Source of the DNA: Rheinheimera mangrovi | Lineage (GTDB): Bacteria; Pseudomonadota; Gammaproteobacteria; Enterobacterales; Alteromonadaceae | DNA length: 64,000 nucleotides | Direction: 5' to 3' | Assembly: GCF_003990335.1 (NCBI RefSeq) | Contig: NZ_CP034683.1 | Coordinates: 4,323,501 to 4,387,500 of the forward strand | Part shown: positions 41,168 through 53,210 of the stretch, piece after piece | Position numbering within the stretch: the first letter of the stretch is position 1 | Layout: each line of letters starts with the position of its first letter | Position numbers and translations under genes: made by a program | The notes under the pieces: model-generated | Database searches by the model: none | Seen by the model: only the letters and a program-made list of their open reading frames with translations | What the model was told of the DNA's origin: nothing

Positions 41168-43945
41168 ATGGTTGTTATACCGGACAATCCTCTCATTTTG
41201 GTCGACGGTTCTTCTTATTTATTCCGCGCTTATCATTCGCCACCACACCTGACCAATTCCAAAGGAGAAGCCACCGGCGCTATTTATGGCGTGGTCAACA
41301 TGCTGAAAAGTTTGTTGCGCCAATACAAACCCAGTCAGATGGTGGTGGTGTTTGACGCCAAAGGTCCTACCTTTCGTAATGAAATGTACAGCGAATACAA
41401 AGCCCATCGCCCGCCGATGCCTGACGACTTGCGCAGCCAGATTGCGCCATTACATCAAATCATTGAGGCTATGGGTTTACCGCTGATCTGTATCAGTGGT
41501 GTTGAAGCGGACGATGTGATTGGTACTTTGGCTGTTCAAGCCAGCCAACAAGGCCGCCATGTGTTGATCTCTACTGGTGACAAAGATATGGCCCAGTTGG
41601 TAGATCAGCATGTCACCTTAATTAACACCATGACAGATACTATTTTGGACCCGGCAGGAGTTGCTGAAAAGTTTGGTGTAGGGCCAGAGCTGATTGTCGA
41701 CTATTTAGCCTTGATGGGCGATAAAGCTGACAATATTCCGGGTTTGCCAGGTGTCGGTGAAAAAACTGCCATGGCTTTGCTGCAAGGTATTGGTTCAATA
41801 GAAAAGTTGTACCAGCAGTTGGATCAGATAGCAGCACTGAACTTCCGTGGCAGCAAAACCATAGCAGCCAAAATGGAAGAATTTAAAGATCAGCTGACGT
41901 TGTCTTATCAGCTCGCCACCATCAAAACAGATGTCGAATTATCGTTACAACCCGATAGCTTAGATATCAAAACACCGGATCAGACTAAACTGGCCGAACT
42001 GTTTGCAGCTTGTGAATTCAGACGCTGGTTAAGCGAAGTATTAGCAGGTAAAGATACTGCAACAGCAGTAGCGACTGCAGCTGCCAAACAGACAGAAGAG
42101 CAAGCAAGTGAAACGCCAGCCAATGGCATTGATACCAGCAGCTACCCATGTATTTTAACCGAAGCTGATTTTCTGCAGCTGGTAAAGCGTCTGCCAGAAG
42201 TTGAACTGGTAGCTTTTGATACCGAAACCACCAGCCTGGATTATATGCAAGCTGATGTGGTGGGTATTTCTCTGGCTTTAGCAGCCGGGGATGCTTGTTA
42301 TATTCCGTTGGCGCATGACTATGTTGGTGCACCTGAACAGCTGAATCGTGACTGGGTGTTAGCTCAGTTGAAGGACTGGCTGGAAGATGAAAGCAAAGCC
42401 AAAGTAGGCCAGAACCTGAAGTACGATCAAAGCGTACTGGCGCGCCATGGCATAACGCTGCGCGGAATTCGCTTTGACACTATGCTTGAGTCTTACATTG
42501 TAAATAGTGTGGCCTCCCGCCACGATATGGACTCCTTGTCACTGAAGTACCTTGGCCATAAAACCATAAGCTTTGAAGACATCGCAGGCAAAGGCGCCAA
42601 ACAAATCACCTTTAACCAAATTGCTCTGGAACAAGCTTCACCTTATGCAGCAGAAGATGCGGATGTGACTTTGCGGTTACACCAAACCTTGTGGCCGATG
42701 CTGGAGCAACATTCAGGCTTGCAGAAAGTATTCCGTGATATCGAAATGCCACTGGTACCTATTTTGTCCAAAATGGAACGTACCGGGGTAAAAATTGATA
42801 GCAACTTGCTGGCGCAACAAAGTCTGGATTTAGCCAAACGTATAGGCGAGATTGAGCAGGAAGCCTATCAGATGGCGGGTAAAGAATTTAACTTGTCATC
42901 TCCGAAGCAACTACAGGAAATTTTGTTTGAACAGATGGGTTTACCTGTACTGAAAAAAACACCTACAGGCACACCATCCACCGCAGAAGAAGTACTAGCT
43001 GAGCTGGCGCTTGATTATGAGTTTCCGAAACTTATTACGGAACACCGGGGTTTAAGTAAGCTCAAATCCACCTATACCGACAAACTGCCGTTGTCAGTTA
43101 ATCCGGCAACAGGCCGGGTACATACCTCTTATCATCAGGCTGTTGCAGCCACAGGCCGCTTAAGTTCCACCGAGCCTAACCTGCAAAATATTCCGATCCG
43201 TAGTGAAGAAGGTCGCCGTATTCGTCAGGCTTTTATTGCTGAAGCGGGTAAAACCATTTTGGCAATCGACTATTCACAAATTGAACTACGCATCATGGCG
43301 CACTTATCACGTGACCCAGCTCTGCTGAATGCCTTTGCGCAAGGCAAAGATATTCACAGAGCCACAGCCGCTGAAGTTTTTGGTGTAGCGCTGGATCAGG
43401 TCAGTTCAGAACAACGCCGCCGCGCTAAAGCGGTCAACTTCGGTCTTATTTATGGTATGTCGGCTTTTGGTTTGGCGCGCCAGTTAGGCATTAGTCGGGG
43501 GGAAGCACAGCAGTATGTAGATCTGTACTTCGAACGTTTTCCTGGCGTATTGGATTATATGGAGCGCACCCGCACTCAGGCGCACGAACAAGGATATGTG
43601 GAAACTCTGTTTGGCCGCCGTTTGTACTTACCAGAAATTAATGCCAAAAACATGGCCCGGAAAAAAGGTGCCGAGCGAGCAGCCATCAATGCGCCTATGC
43701 AGGGCACTGCAGCCGACATTATCAAAATGGCCATGATTCAAGTGTCAGCCTGGCAGGACAAACAACCTGCAGGTATCGTTGCAATGATTATGCAGGTACA
43801 CGATGAACTGGTGTTTGAAGTGAAAACTGAAGAACTGGAACGGGTAAGTTCTGAACTGGTTGAAATCATGCAATCTGCCGCATCACTGGATGTGCCATTA
43901 CTTGCAGAAGCTGGTTTTGGTCCAAACTGGGATCAGGCGCATTAA
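41168..43945 (+). CDS. polA: DNA polymerase I
   Basis: 925 aa (E. coli 928). A 5'-nuclease domain ([15 protein letters not shown] at the start, helix-hairpin-helix [14 protein letters not shown]) is followed by a 3'-5' exonuclease domain with an intact motif I ([14 protein letters not shown]) and the polymerase domain: motif [17 protein letters not shown], motif [21 protein letters not shown], motif [12 protein letters not shown]. All three activities should be present. It fills gaps and removes RNA primers. Spot 42 and engB follow downstream, the order seen in many gammaproteobacteria. Confidence 0.98.
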
Positions 43946-44717: not shown

Positions 44718-45332
44718 TTATTCTTGTTCTGCGCTGTACCATTGGTCCAGTTTTTGTTCTAACTCAGACAAACCCAATTTAGTCAGGGAACTGAAGACTT
44801 GCACTGTCACATCACCCATAAACGCCATAGAAGCTTCTGTTACTTCCATTAATACTTTTTTGCGTGGGCCAGGGCTTAACTTGTCAGCTTTAGTCAACAG
44901 CAATAAAACCTGCAAATTACTTTGCACAGCCCAATGAATTAAATCCTGATCCAAATCTTTTAACGGATGGCGGATATCCATTAAAATCACTATGCCTTTT
45001 AGGCTTTCGCGTTTCATCAGATATTCGCTCAGGGCTTTTTGCCATTTTTCTTTGACTGCTAAAGGCACTTTAGCAAAGCCATAACCTGGTAAATCGATCA
45101 GGCGTTGATTCTCAGCTAAAGAAAACGTATTAATTAACTGAGTACGACCTGGCGTTTTACTGGTTCGGGCTAAACCATTTTGCCGTGTCAGCGTATTTAA
45201 TGCACTGGACTTGCCGGCGTTAGAACGACCAGCAAAGGCAACTTCGATACCTGTATCTGCGGGCAGAGCCTTAATATCAGGGGCACTGGTCAGAAAAGTT
45301 GCTTTCTGATAATTGATGATCGCTTTGTACAC
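44718..45332 (-). CDS. engB: Ribosome biogenesis GTP-binding protein EngB (YihA/YsxC)
   Basis: 204 aa. The GTPase motifs are [18 protein letters not shown] (G1), TPGRTQLI (G2), [12 protein letters not shown] (G3) and LLTKADKL (G4), all matching EngB. It is needed for late assembly of the large ribosomal subunit. It is convergent with polA/spf, as in other gammaproteobacteria, and divergent from the cytochrome c4 gene. Confidence 0.95.
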
Positions 45333-45513: not shown

Positions 45514-46140
45514 ATGAAAAAATTCGCACTTCCACTCACGCTCTTTTTAGGGTTAATCAGTACAGCTTATGCAGCCGATGGGGATGCAGAAGCAGGTAAA
45601 GCTAAATCCGTGACTTGTGCTGCCTGCCATGGCATGGACGGGAATAGCCCAACAGATTTATATCCAAAAATTGCTGGTCAACATGCTGGTTATCTATTTA
45701 AGCAATTAAAAGAATTTAAACTCGGAGCCACTACAGGTGGTAAAGAAGGCCGCAATAACCCTGTGATGGCAGGTATGGTTGCTGCTTTGTCTGAGCAGGA
45801 TATGAAAGATCTGGCGGCTTATTACTCCAGCCAAACCATGAAAGAAGGCAGCACGCCGGAAGATGTGGTTGCTAAAGGTGAAAAATTATTCCGTGGTGGT
45901 GACCTGGATCGTGGCATTGCAGCCTGTATCGCTTGTCACGGCCCACGTGGTGTAGGCCATAGCTTAGCTGGCTTCCCGAAAATTTCGTTCCAGCATGCGG
46001 CTTATATTAAAACTCAGCTGGAGTCTTTCCGTAACGGTTCACGTGCCAATGATATGAATGGCATGATGCGTGATGTTGCGAAAAAACTAACTGACGAAGA
46101 TATAGAAGTATTATCTAAGTATGTGGGTGGTTTACACTAA
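45514..46140 (+). CDS. Diheme cytochrome c4
   Basis: 208 aa from ATG 45514, which starts the signal peptide MKKFALPLTLFLGLISTAYA; the frame is open from 45469, but ACGGA precedes 45514. Two class-I cytochrome domains each carry a CxxCH heme site (CAACHGMDGNS near residue 38, CIACHGPRGVG near residue 135) and an axial methionine (NPVMAGMV, MNGMMRDV). It is a periplasmic electron carrier to terminal oxidases. The engB-cytochrome c4 neighbourhood is conserved in Pseudomonas and relatives. Confidence 0.94.
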   Translation: MKKFALPLTLFLGLISTAYAADGDAEAGKAKSVTCAACHGMDGNSPTDLYPKIAGQHAGYLFKQLKEFKLGATTGGKEGRNNPVMAGMVAALSEQDMKDLAAYYSSQTMKEGSTPEDVVAKGEKLFRGGDLDRGIAACIACHGPRGVGHSLAGFPKISFQHAAYIKTQLESFRNGSRANDMNGMMRDVAKKLTDEDIEVLSKYVGGLH

Positions 46141-46162
46141 CAGCTCTTTTACTCTGCACAAA

Positions 46163-46187
46163 GCCAGGCTTCATGCCTGGTTTTTTT
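46163..46187 (+). terminator. Rho-independent terminator of the cytochrome c4 gene
   Basis: CCAGGC (46164-46169) / GCCTGG (46175-46180) with loop TTCAT, then TTTTTTT. Confidence 0.87.
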
Positions 46188-46234: not shown

Positions 46235-46252
46235 TGTGAGATATATCTCACA
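46235..46252. promoter_or_regulatory. UvrY/GacA-type binding box 1
   Basis: TGTGAGATATATCTCACA is a perfect 18-bp palindrome. It matches the form of the E. coli UvrY box upstream of csrB/csrC (TGTGAGAGATCTCTTACA). Confidence 0.7.
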
Positions 46253-46256
46253 ACCT

Positions 46257-46274
46257 TGTAAGATATAACTTACG
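46257..46274. promoter_or_regulatory. UvrY/GacA-type binding box 2
   Basis: TGTAAG-ATATAA-CTTACG matches the Pseudomonas GacA box TGTAAG-N6-CTTACA at 11 of 12 fixed positions. Its centre is 22 bp from that of box 1, about two helical turns, so both lie on the same DNA face. Confidence 0.7.
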
Positions 46275-46369
46275 CAACCCAAAAACTACAAAACAACAAC
46301 CCAAGCAATTGATTTATAAAGACATTACAAAAAAGTTCAGTTTTTTTGTGTTTTTTTTATACCGTTGTA

Positions 46370-46397
46370 TTGCCATTCTGAAAAATCGGAGTAGATT
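46370..46397 (+). promoter_or_regulatory. Candidate promoter of the Csr-type RNA
   Basis: -35 TTGCCA (46370-46375), 16-bp spacer, -10 TAGATT (46392-46397), predicting a start near 46404. The two UvrY-type boxes would be centred at about -160 and -138, a distance typical for Gac/UvrY-controlled RNA genes. Confidence 0.5.
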
Positions 46398-46403
46398 TAA
46401 GTC

Positions 46404-46697
46404 CGTTACATTTAGTAACCATTAAAAAACACGGAAGCTGGCACGGAAAGCAGCAGTGCATCAGTACATTTTTTGCAGCATCAAGATGATGACAATGTGT
46501 ATTTTACACAGCGCACGGAAGGACCATTAAGTATCAGGACGATCGCGAATAATTATTTTCATAGGGAATTTGCGTAAAAATATAGGGAATTTGTGCAGAC
46601 AGGGTGTTGAACTCCCGTCAGGATGACTTAAAGCAGATTATGTGTCGCGCTAGACACCTTATATAGAGGGCGGTAACATCTTACACCGCCCTTTTTA
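46404..46697 (+). ncRNA. Csr/Rsm-type regulatory small RNA (CsrB-like), CsrA antagonist
   Basis: About 290 nt with eight GGA motifs (46433, 46445, 46517, 46521, 46537, 46565, 46586, 46621). CACGGAAG occurs twice (46430, 46514), matching the CANGGANG CsrA-site consensus. Several GGAs lie in loops: GTCA-GGA-TGAC at 46617-46627 and ATC-aggac-GAT at 46533-46543. The RNA ends with GGGCGGT / ACCGCCC (46668-46674, 46685-46691) and TTTTT. With the two UvrY/GacA boxes upstream, this fits a BarA/UvrY-activated RNA that sequesters CsrA. There is no reading frame with a ribosome site. Exact ends are predicted. Confidence 0.72.
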
Positions 46698-46700
46698 TTT

Positions 46701-47357
46701 ATGCTCACCATGAATTCAGTTTGCCCTTTGTGTCAGCATTCACAAACCCAGCCTTTTTGCAGCGATAAAAGACGTGCATACTTTCAATGCCAGCAGTGTT
46801 TTTTAGTCTTTGCGGACCGTAACACCTTGTTGACTGCAGAGCAGGAAAAGGCCCAATACGATTTACATCAAAATCAATTGGACGACCCTGGCTACCGCAA
46901 ATTCTTATCTCGCTTATCTGTGCCTCTGCTGAGCAGCCTCACGCCTGAACAAAACACCGGACTGGATTTCGGTTGTGGCCCCGGGCCCTTATTAGCGCAA
47001 ATGCTCAGCGAAGCAGGTAAAAAGATGCAAGTCTGGGATCCTTTTTATGCGCCGGAGCCAAAAGCTCTGCAGCAAAAGTATCATTTTGTCAGTTGCACTG
47101 AAGCCATAGAACATTTCATTAATCCGGCGAAAGAATGGAGTTTATGGCTGGATTTACTGTTGCCAGAAGCTGTGCTGGCATTGATGACCAAACGCTACAC
47201 AGACCAAAGCAGTTTCACCAACTGGCACTATAAAAACGACCCCACCCATATCAGTTTTTTCCATCAGGACACTTTTGAATTTTTGGCGAAACGGGATAAT
47301 TTCACAGTGAATTTTCCGGCCGATGACGTAGTTCTATTTAAAAAACGAAATACCTAG
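46701..47357 (+). CDS. Class I SAM-dependent methyltransferase with N-terminal zinc ribbon
   Basis: 218 aa. The N-terminus has two Cys pairs (CPLC, CQQC) that form a zinc knuckle. A Rossmann methyltransferase follows with SAM motif LDFGCGPGPLLAQML (near residue 91) and a conserved CTEAIEHF. It resembles the methyltransferase_22/'class I SAM-dependent' family; the substrate is unknown. The frame starts at ATG 46701, 4 nt after the terminator T-run of the Csr-type RNA, with no visible ribosome site at this or the next ATG (46710). Expression may depend on read-through or a leaderless transcript. Confidence 0.8.
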   Translation: MLTMNSVCPLCQHSQTQPFCSDKRRAYFQCQQCFLVFADRNTLLTAEQEKAQYDLHQNQLDDPGYRKFLSRLSVPLLSSLTPEQNTGLDFGCGPGPLLAQMLSEAGKKMQVWDPFYAPEPKALQQKYHFVSCTEAIEHFINPAKEWSLWLDLLLPEAVLALMTKRYTDQSSFTNWHYKNDPTHISFFHQDTFEFLAKRDNFTVNFPADDVVLFKKRNT

Positions 47358-47410: not shown

Positions 47411-47965
47411 ATGACCCGGATTAAAAAAACTCGCACCTCAGGCCCACTTGGAACCAGGCACAGACCGGCTGAAGAAGCCCGTCAGGATCGCACGCGCGCA
47501 CCTGAAACCAAAAAGAAAGGTGCAGGCTTAAAATCCGGTAGTCGCCATTCTCCGTCCGCTGAAGATAAACAAAAACAGTCAGCCAAAAGTCCAAAAGATC
47601 CACGTCATGGCAGTAAAAAGCCTATAGCGCTGGTGGTCACTGAAGCAGAACAAAAGCTGATGGCACAACCTAAGCAGTTCAAGCCAGTGGTGCAACTGAG
47701 CAAAGCCAAAGAGCCGGAAATGCCAGCTGAACAGGAATTAGCGCTACTCGAAAACGATGAGAAGTTGCTGGAATTGCTGGACCTGGTCGATAAAGGCGAA
47801 ATCCTGACAGGTAAAGACGCGAAGTACTTTAATGCCAAAACGGCACGTCATGCGGAGCTTGTTGCCCTGTTAGGTTTAGATCAGGAAAACGAAGCAGAGG
47901 AAGACGAAGATCCGTTAGCCAAATTAGAGCGTACAGATTGGCGTAAAGAATTTTTAGGCGAATAG
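47411..47965 (+). CDS. yihI: Der GTPase-activating protein YihI
   Basis: 184 aa. A long basic, disordered N-terminus (TRIKKTRTSGPLGTRHRPAE) is followed by a helical acidic C-terminal half (LALLENDEKLLELLDLVDKG), the arrangement of YihI. It stimulates GTP hydrolysis by Der (EngA) and so modulates 50S ribosome assembly. It is close to engB, another ribosome-assembly GTPase gene, and 10 nt upstream of the DUF2489 gene with which it forms an operon. Confidence 0.92.
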   Translation: MTRIKKTRTSGPLGTRHRPAEEARQDRTRAPETKKKGAGLKSGSRHSPSAEDKQKQSAKSPKDPRHGSKKPIALVVTEAEQKLMAQPKQFKPVVQLSKAKEPEMPAEQELALLENDEKLLELLDLVDKGEILTGKDAKYFNAKTARHAELVALLGLDQENEAEEDEDPLAKLERTDWRKEFLGE

Positions 47966-52613: not shown

Positions 52614-53210
52614 TTACAACCAGCCTTTTTGTCGGGCTATTCTGGCGGCATCAACCCGGTTTGCTGCATTCAGTTTACTAATAGCTTCCGATAAATAATT
52701 CCGTGCCGTGCCCTCAGCAATAAAAAGCGCTGTCGCAATTTCAGCTGTGCTTTTGCCTTCAGAGGCTAATCGCAAAGCCCGGCGTTCCTTGTCACTTAAA
52801 GGGTCGTGCTGACCCAAAGCCGATAAAGCCAGCTCAGCATCTATCACACGTTTTCCAGCCATCACCTGATAAATAGCCTGCACCAGCTGCTCTGAAGGCG
52901 CGTCTTTCAGTAAAAAACCCTGCACCCCAGCAGCAATAGCGCGCTGAATATACCCAGAGCGACCAAAGGTGGTGATCACTATCACTTTGATTTTGCTTTG
53001 TTGCTGCTGCAAATAAAGCGCTAATTCCAGACCGCTGCGACCCGGCATTTCAATATCAGTCAGTAGCAGATCAAAGTCCTGTTGTTTCAGCAGTGTCAAC
53101 GCCTGATCACCATCGGCCGCCTGAGAGATCTGAAACTCTGCATTCAGGCCCAATAAGGCCGCTAAAGCGCCCCGCACCATAGCTTGATCTTCCGCCAGTA
53201 AAATACGCAT
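52614..53210 (-). CDS. NarL/DesR-type response regulator
   Basis: 198 aa. A receiver domain (RILLAEDQAMVRGAL, phospho-acceptor Asp in LLLTDIEMPGRSGL near residue 54, Lys in FLLKDAP) is followed by a LuxR-type helix-turn-helix (LRLASEGKSTAEIATALFIA, GTARNYLSEAISKL). It is paired with the kinase gene that ends one base into its start (stop/ATG overlap at 53210). DesR-like regulators control membrane-lipid or envelope genes, but the target here cannot be deduced. Confidence 0.9.
   Translation of the reverse strand: MRILLAEDQAMVRGALAALLGLNAEFQISQAADGDQALTLLKQQDFDLLLTDIEMPGRSGLELALYLQQQQSKIKVIVITTFGRSGYIQRAIAAGVQGFLLKDAPSEQLVQAIYQVMAGKRVIDAELALSALGQHDPLSDKERRALRLASEGKSTAEIATALFIAEGTARNYLSEAISKLNAANRVDAARIARQKGWL

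Follow-up and report, generated by a model that had tools for sequence, protein, structure and literature searches.

Csr RNAs determine how active a global regulator is, but their sequences are poorly conserved and annotation overlooks them. In the accessible part of PMC4682653, csrB and csrC are described as the strongest targets of UvrY, which recognises, a long way upstream of each, an inverted repeat of 18 nt; in E. coli the centre of the csrB site lies at −183/−182, IHF is required for the best binding of UvrY at csrB, and the Salmonella csrC site is given as TGTGAGACATTGACCATT. In E. coli the gene order around csrC is polA-spf-yihA-csrC-yihI. For Shewanella oneidensis, the available portion of PMC3171408 places two Csr RNAs controlled by a UvrY box, CsrB1 and CsrB2, at SO_1615–SO_1617, and a predicted CsrC, with only four conserved motifs, between mutM and SO_4727. 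The csrB copies of Vibrio arise by duplication and relocation and are sorted by synteny, according to extracts of PMC6262261. Another such RNA, Pf3 of Pseudoalteromonas fuliginea, is reported to have nine GGA motifs, an active promoter and CsrA binding by EMSA and RIP-seq; its neighbours are D172_RS16045/16040, and in the accessible sections of PMC11882849 only partial matches are given outside its genus (zebrafish, wasp and Thalassotalea) and orthology with CsrC is unreported. A literature search found no paper combining Rheinheimera with csrB, or cytochrome c4 with csrC, and at the level of titles and abstracts nothing on the csrC-yihA-yihI slot in these bacteria.

The window analysed here, a stretch of 64,000 nt, covers positions 4323501–4387500 of a single-contig 4.63-Mb genome of Rheinheimera. 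Positions 46235–46698 of it are very likely to hold the gene for a CsrA-sequestering small RNA controlled by BarA/UvrY, probably the CsrC orthologue of Rheinheimera. The genes run in the order polA (41168–43945, + strand), yihA (YihA/YsxC; 44718–45332, − strand), a c4-like diheme cytochrome c gene (45514–46140, + strand; Pfam Cytochrom_C) with its own terminator at 46160–46184, the RNA, an ORF with a methyltransferase domain (46701–47357; Pfam Methyltransf_23) and yihI, for the Der GTPase-activating protein (47411–47965, + strand), the downstream neighbour that is retained across the family. The assignments of polA, yihA and yihI are all over the NCBIfam cut-offs, and YihA and YihI are 68% and 37% identical, respectively, to the E. 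coli proteins over the aligned parts. We call the diheme cytochrome c a cytochrome c4, a label that comes from the reader of the sequence and from us and is not a library name. The flanking genes, ending at 46140 and starting at 46701, bear out the position between cytochrome c4 and a methyltransferase gene that an earlier note on this DNA had given. The arrangement yihA-[cytochrome c]-RNA-yihI is the csrC slot of E. coli with a cytochrome gene added; this position, and the relatives across the family and further that are described below, are new beyond the earlier note.

Two UvrY/GacA boxes precede the RNA, 22 bp apart from start to start. Box 1, TGTGAGATATATCTCACA (46235–46252, no strand given), is a perfect 18-bp palindrome with its centre ~160 bp 5′ of the predicted RNA start, and box 2, TGTAAGATATAACTTACG (46257–46274), agrees with the box at 11 of 12 fixed positions; the spacing, the palindrome and the 11/12 match are all confirmed. 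In the 4.63-Mb genome the consensus TGTRAGN6CTYACA occurs twice, each time ahead of a GGA-rich stretch, against none in the reversed control, and a search of the genome with the 18-mer, allowing up to three mismatches, gave no third site. Among the 21 loci of the genus with upstream sequence, box 1 is unchanged in 18 and differs by one letter in three, and box 2 is present within one mismatch in 10 of them; the sister-genus loci have sites such as TGTAAGAAATCTGCCATA near the position of box 2. Between the boxes and the promoter lies an IHF-like site, WATCARNNNNTTR (46302–46314, − strand), ~100 nt before the RNA start. It is exact in 17 of the same 21 loci, has one mismatch in three and is missing from one, and its distance from the box differs between two species groups. 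The putative sigma-70-like promoter, TTGCCA-16-TAGATT (46370–46397, + strand), matches at 9 of 12 positions and forms part of a strongly conserved upstream block. The whole region has five sigma-70-like matches where 3.7 are expected, and because this number is near chance, the promoter call rests on conservation. Just 5′ of the −35 element, GTTCA followed by two T-tracts (46335–46363) is a conserved feature of the 21 loci of the genus for which upstream sequence is available, and is perhaps an UP element or a site for a nucleoid protein.

The predicted small RNA, whose ends are taken from the promoter and the terminator, is ~295 nt long (46402–46698, + strand). Its eight GGA motifs start at 46433, 46445, 46517, 46521, 46537, 46565, 46586 and 46621, and two of them are CACGGAAG; a predicted RNA of ~290 nt with eight GGA, this pair among them, and a terminator, beginning ~135–160 bp past the boxes, is located as the earlier note had claimed. 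Compared with dinucleotide shuffles, GGA occurs 8 times versus 4.55 expected (p = 0.033), ANGGA 6 times versus 1.5 (p = 0.003) and YAGGAYGA twice versus 0.02, a number that 0 of 1000 shuffles reach. The GGA count alone would be weak evidence, and it is conservation and the box that carry the case. A protein-coding reading of the stretch was rejected since its short ORFs vary between species; no ORF is common to the 22 genus sequences (the two longest ORFs per sequence, at least 14 codons each, were considered).

Folding of the whole RNA is mildly stable (z = −1.67), which is no unusual stability. A 5′ hairpin, GTTACATTTAGTAAC (46405–46419, + strand), has a stem that is identical in 25 of 25 sequences. 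Three further predicted hairpins on the + strand carry a GGA in the loop that is retained in 22/22 sequences: GCAC...GTGC (46441–46459), GTATC-AGGAC-GATCGC (46531–46546) and GTC-AGGAT-GAC (46617–46627). The last two have loops of 5 nt and are candidate CsrA sites; in two of three sister-genus sequences the GGA of GTC-AGGAT-GAC is gone. The expectation that the GGA motifs sit in loops thus holds for the three in consensus hairpins, while in the predicted ensembles the unpairedness is just somewhat higher for GGA (0.55) than for GAG/AGG (0.43). The RNA ends at an intrinsic terminator, GGGCGGT...ACCGCCC followed by T's (46668–46698, + strand; stem 46668–46674/46685–46691), which shows compensatory changes in relatives. 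A simple terminator scan did not list it because that scan was restricted to loops of 3–8. A 21-nt unit bearing a GGA, ATAGGGAATTTGCGTAAAAAT (46561–46593), is present once with a partial repeat, and one extra unit is found in the related genome G001; this repeat suggests that tandem duplication may be a way in which new CsrA sites arise.

The same genome has a CsrB-like RNA at ~3938184–3938501, found with the Rfam CsrB model at 41.1 bits (E = 1.3e-9), below gathering. The two RNAs have in common the upstream 18-bp palindrome, which is identical, CAGGAYGA motifs, which are repeated in the CsrB-like RNA, and an IHF-like match, with one mismatch at the CsrB-like RNA; they differ in their neighbours and in the number of GGA motifs, 21 in the CsrB-like RNA versus 8. 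The identical 18-mer precedes a GGA-rich stretch (21–37 GGA per 650 nt) in 21 genomes, these being the present one and 20 that were chosen for carrying the box. At 18 of these 21 CsrB-like loci an IHF-like match with at most one mismatch, exact in six, lies at +70 to +72 from the box. CsrA is found in the genome over the Pfam cut-off, and the best matches to UvrY (63% identity, residues 1–212 of 218) and BarA (40% identity, residues 1–913 of 918) indicate, by one-way best match, that orthologues of CsrA, UvrY and BarA are likely to be present.

As sequence, the locus has multiple GGA motifs, some of them in hairpin loops, and a far-upstream UvrY/GacA box; as prediction, it has its own promoter, an intrinsic terminator and no conserved ORF. 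This anatomy, with the box ~160 bp upstream, the IHF-like site, the promoter and the GGA-rich RNA, closely fits the published picture of csrB and csrC. Given the conserved box and GGA motifs, the likely presence of the regulators and a second RNA behind an identical box, a CsrA antagonist controlled by BarA/UvrY, as first proposed in the earlier note, is the best explanation of the region. Phosphorylated UvrY of the BarA/UvrY system would bind the 18-bp palindrome, and perhaps box 2, ~130–160 bp upstream, and an IHF bend at 46302–46314 would bring the bound UvrY to the sigma-70 promoter. The ~295-nt RNA would then be transcribed and end at its terminator, and CsrA would bind its conserved ANGGA and hairpin-loop AGGAY motifs and so be drawn off its mRNA targets, the RNA acting beside the larger CsrB-like RNA with the identical box. 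We infer the transcription, the binding of UvrY, IHF and CsrA and the effect on targets from the sequence.

The Rfam search that had been proposed, with the CsrB, CsrC, RsmY/Z and PrrB models, failed to place the RNA: no Csr/Rsm family matched at the locus, either at gathering or at E ≤ 10. Weak matches to SorX, Hrs12 and AgvB were dismissed, lying on the terminator of the cytochrome gene or on the AT-rich upstream stretch. The CsrC model (RF00084) found nothing in 15 genus loci at E ≤ 1 and gave 19.8 bits (E = 0.064; gathering 61) at one sister-genus locus. With no match that reaches the gathering threshold, the RNA is not classed as a member of Rfam CsrC. It shares with the CsrC of E. coli and Salmonella (RF00084) the yihA-yihI slot, an upstream UvrY site, richness in GGA and a terminator, and differs from it in having 8 GGA motifs rather than 14 and a cytochrome c gene standing between yihA and the RNA. 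It also has a perfect UvrY palindrome and an IHF-like site; in the part of PMC4682653 available, IHF is reported for E. coli csrB and not for csrC. Pf3 is likewise a short Csr RNA with few GGA, a likeness at the level of description. CsrB1 and CsrB2 of S. oneidensis share the control by a UvrY box that is predicted here and, in the portion of PMC3171408 available, stand at loci that differ from the yihA-yihI slot.

Cytochrome c4 was detected in 85 of 119 genomes of the order, and the slot was surveyed at 84 loci, 81 of them downstream of cytochrome c4 and three from the sister genus. A UvrY-type site is found in 11/84, a descriptive figure, the regular expression for csrC-type sites having been written after seeing some of these sites and the published ones of E. 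coli and Salmonella. Each of the 11 is followed by 8–18 GGA motifs, and five of them belong to the genus and sister genus; the reverse strand gave 0, and the shuffle rate was 0.0005. Most same-order loci 3′ of cytochrome c4 (73/84) are without a recognisable box. A plain profile of 22 sequences matched slot loci in two further families (E from 1e-4 to 0.04) and had no matches on reversed sequence.

Sequences from the genus (12) and the sister genus (two) were used to build a covariance model, R1. At a cut-off of E ≤ 0.1 it has matches in 73 of 157 family genomes, spread over 33 of 52 genera. It does not match the CsrB-like RNA (E = 0.89). The neighbours of 52 of the 79 family hits listed, all outside the genus (E from 7.8e-44 to 1.9e-5), were inspected; the other 27 are eight better hits from the genus or sister genus and 19 weaker ones (E from 2.2e-5 to 0.066). 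Downstream on the same strand, yihI is present at 50 of the 52; the remaining two are a hit that runs to the end of its contig, preceded by yihA and cytochrome c, and one, L233, without such neighbours. The flanks of 1.5–2.1 kb upstream contain cytochrome c in 29 cases and yihA in 29, and a UvrY-type site, by a looser regular expression for the box, precedes 24 of the 52. Several of these hits have TGTAAGACATTGACCATT at about −161, and such sites resemble the Salmonella csrC site. Among 197 genomes of the order, 27 match at E ≤ 0.01. Fifteen of the 25 order-level hits inspected have yihI, or cytochrome c together with yihA, on the proper side; the other 10 are outside the slot, all have E ≥ 1.8e-4, and vanish when the terminator is removed from the model. 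Across 274 genomes of the class, matches at E ≤ 0.001 were confined to the own genome and a single member of the family, in a search with stricter filters by which weak matches can be lost.

The minus-strand noise of R1 reaches 17.7 bits. E. coli csrC scores 25.6 bits with the model, and no other match exceeds 10.8 bits in 89,881 bases that include the csrB region and ten CsrB-like genus loci. Rfam recognises two of 20 model-found loci, as CsrC at 144.9 and 138.9 bits, and both lie beside Spot 42 in the E. coli gene order; R1 gives these 26.0 and 25.5 bits, where non-slot hits score at most 23.7 and terminator-only hits at most 22.0. A second covariance model, R2, which leaves the terminator out, was applied to 81 loci. 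At E ≤ 0.01 it retains 27/35 family loci (34 of the 35 are in the slot) and, in families f6 and f21, 5/12 places (one of the 12 was entered twice), so that homology there is carried by the body of the RNA. It matches none of the three loci consisting of E. coli csrC and the two Rfam-positive CsrC loci, and the GGA-rich loci of families f25 and f10 in the cytochrome c4-yihI interval are matched in 0/4 cases by R1 or R2 (E ≤ 0.1). The link to E. coli CsrC is thus carried mainly by position, together with the UvrY site, the GGA content and the terminator, and since the terminator-free model loses E. coli CsrC, we speak of a probable CsrC orthologue and not of an Rfam CsrC member. GGA-rich stretches in the cytochrome c4-yihI interval are seen in other families of the order (L101, L104, L133, L134, L138 and L145), with no Rfam match at gathering level.

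The division made by R2, between the family and f6/f21 loci that it finds and the E. coli-type CsrC and f25/f10 loci that it does not, would suit a reading in which an independent CsrB-type copy settled in the slot, giving a UvrY-controlled CsrA antagonist that is the analogue and not the orthologue of E. coli CsrC; the duplication and relocation of csrB copies in Vibrio, as reported in the extracts of PMC6262261, would provide a precedent. We consider this unlikely, because E. coli, the two Rfam-positive CsrC loci and many genera have the slot in common, the TGTAAGACATTGACCATT-like sites resemble that of Salmonella csrC, and the full R1 model sets E. coli csrC well apart from its next best match.

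The identification as a Csr RNA, probably CsrC, is further supported by conservation within the genus. The region is present in 22/22 genus genomes searched, and the core pattern of the RNA is found on 19 contigs (Rheinheimera 12, Alkalimonas 1, Alishewanella 1 and Gammaproteobacteria MAGs 5), a tally that may omit the record of the window itself. In the alignment of the 22 genus sequences 43% of positions are invariant. Six of the eight GGA sites are invariant in all 22, compared with 16% of all triplets, and GGA is the most conserved triplet among those seen at least four times. Five of the six invariant sites vary in the letter preceding GGA, one of the five in just one genome. The earlier note had regarded boxes and GGA motifs that were not conserved in relatives as the sign that its proposal was wrong; these six GGA sites and the box, exact in 18/21, are the opposite of that. 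RNAalifold proposed 46 pairs, 11 of them with compensatory changes. The GGA-loop hairpins recur in 24, 25 and 25 of 25 sequences (22 from the genus and three from the sister genus), descriptive counts made with regular expressions for the helices that were derived from the sequences themselves and not a test, and a late helix alternates between GTGT/ACAC, GTGC/GCAC and GCAC/GTGC in the genus and sister genus. In the sister genus, three genomes out of 147 of the family in a DNA-similarity search, the same RNA is flanked by the cytochrome gene on one side and yihI on the other. Between-species identity among 11 near species is 0.95 for this RNA versus 0.91 for the CsrB-like RNA; for distant species the shuffled baseline, 0.76, is too high for the comparison to be informative.

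Some stretches that lack GGA, among them ACAGGGTGT and the 5′ hairpin, do not vary within the genus; these, and the presence of only eight GGA motifs, would suit a UvrY-regulated sRNA that acts chiefly by pairing with mRNAs and binds CsrA secondarily or not at all. This is improbable given that GGA is the best conserved triplet while the letters next to it vary, that the CAGGAYGA motifs are common to the CsrB-like RNA of the same genome, and that ACAGGGTGT is not retained in the sister genus. The ORF for the methyltransferase begins 3–12 nt 3′ of the terminator of the RNA, as it might if the box controlled that gene and the transcribed stretch were its leader, a reading we find hardly credible since in at least nine same-genus genomes the methyltransferase is absent here and the yihI leader comes next, all nine keeping the RNA and, where upstream sequence is available (eight of them), the box, and since a terminator with compensatory changes divides the RNA from the ORF. 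The methyltransferase may be expressed by read-through from the RNA.

With a probable CsrA-sequestering RNA at this locus and the CsrB-like RNA elsewhere in the genome, a two-RNA Csr system is predicted for Rheinheimera. The slot, taken with the UvrY site as an anchor, offers a route to CsrC-like RNAs across a large order, and the sequences obtained could widen the family model of CsrC. A wider proposal is possible, which we put forward tentatively: csrC may be an RNA gene of great age, common to the whole order, that has stayed in the yihA-yihI slot from before the Enterobacteriaceae and Alteromonadaceae types separated and has diverged beyond what Rfam recognises; Pf3 and other orphan Csr RNAs may be CsrC in disguise; and the invariant stretches without GGA may serve a second activity beyond CsrA titration.

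Some smaller features of the region were also seen. In three same-genus genomes (G012, G003 and G006) the sequence 5′ of the RNA is unlike the end of cytochrome c4, so that the upstream neighbour appears to be changeable, with the RNA and yihI staying. In three relatives, the coding strand of one gene includes a 28-nt stretch with 96% complementarity to positions 46460–46486 of the RNA; in the own genome the antisense-like match to this stretch is just 17 nt among the matches listed, and the 28-nt match could be due to chance. A match of 28% to a UvrY-like response regulator lies elsewhere in the window, on the minus strand at 52614–53210, with one in-frame stop within it.
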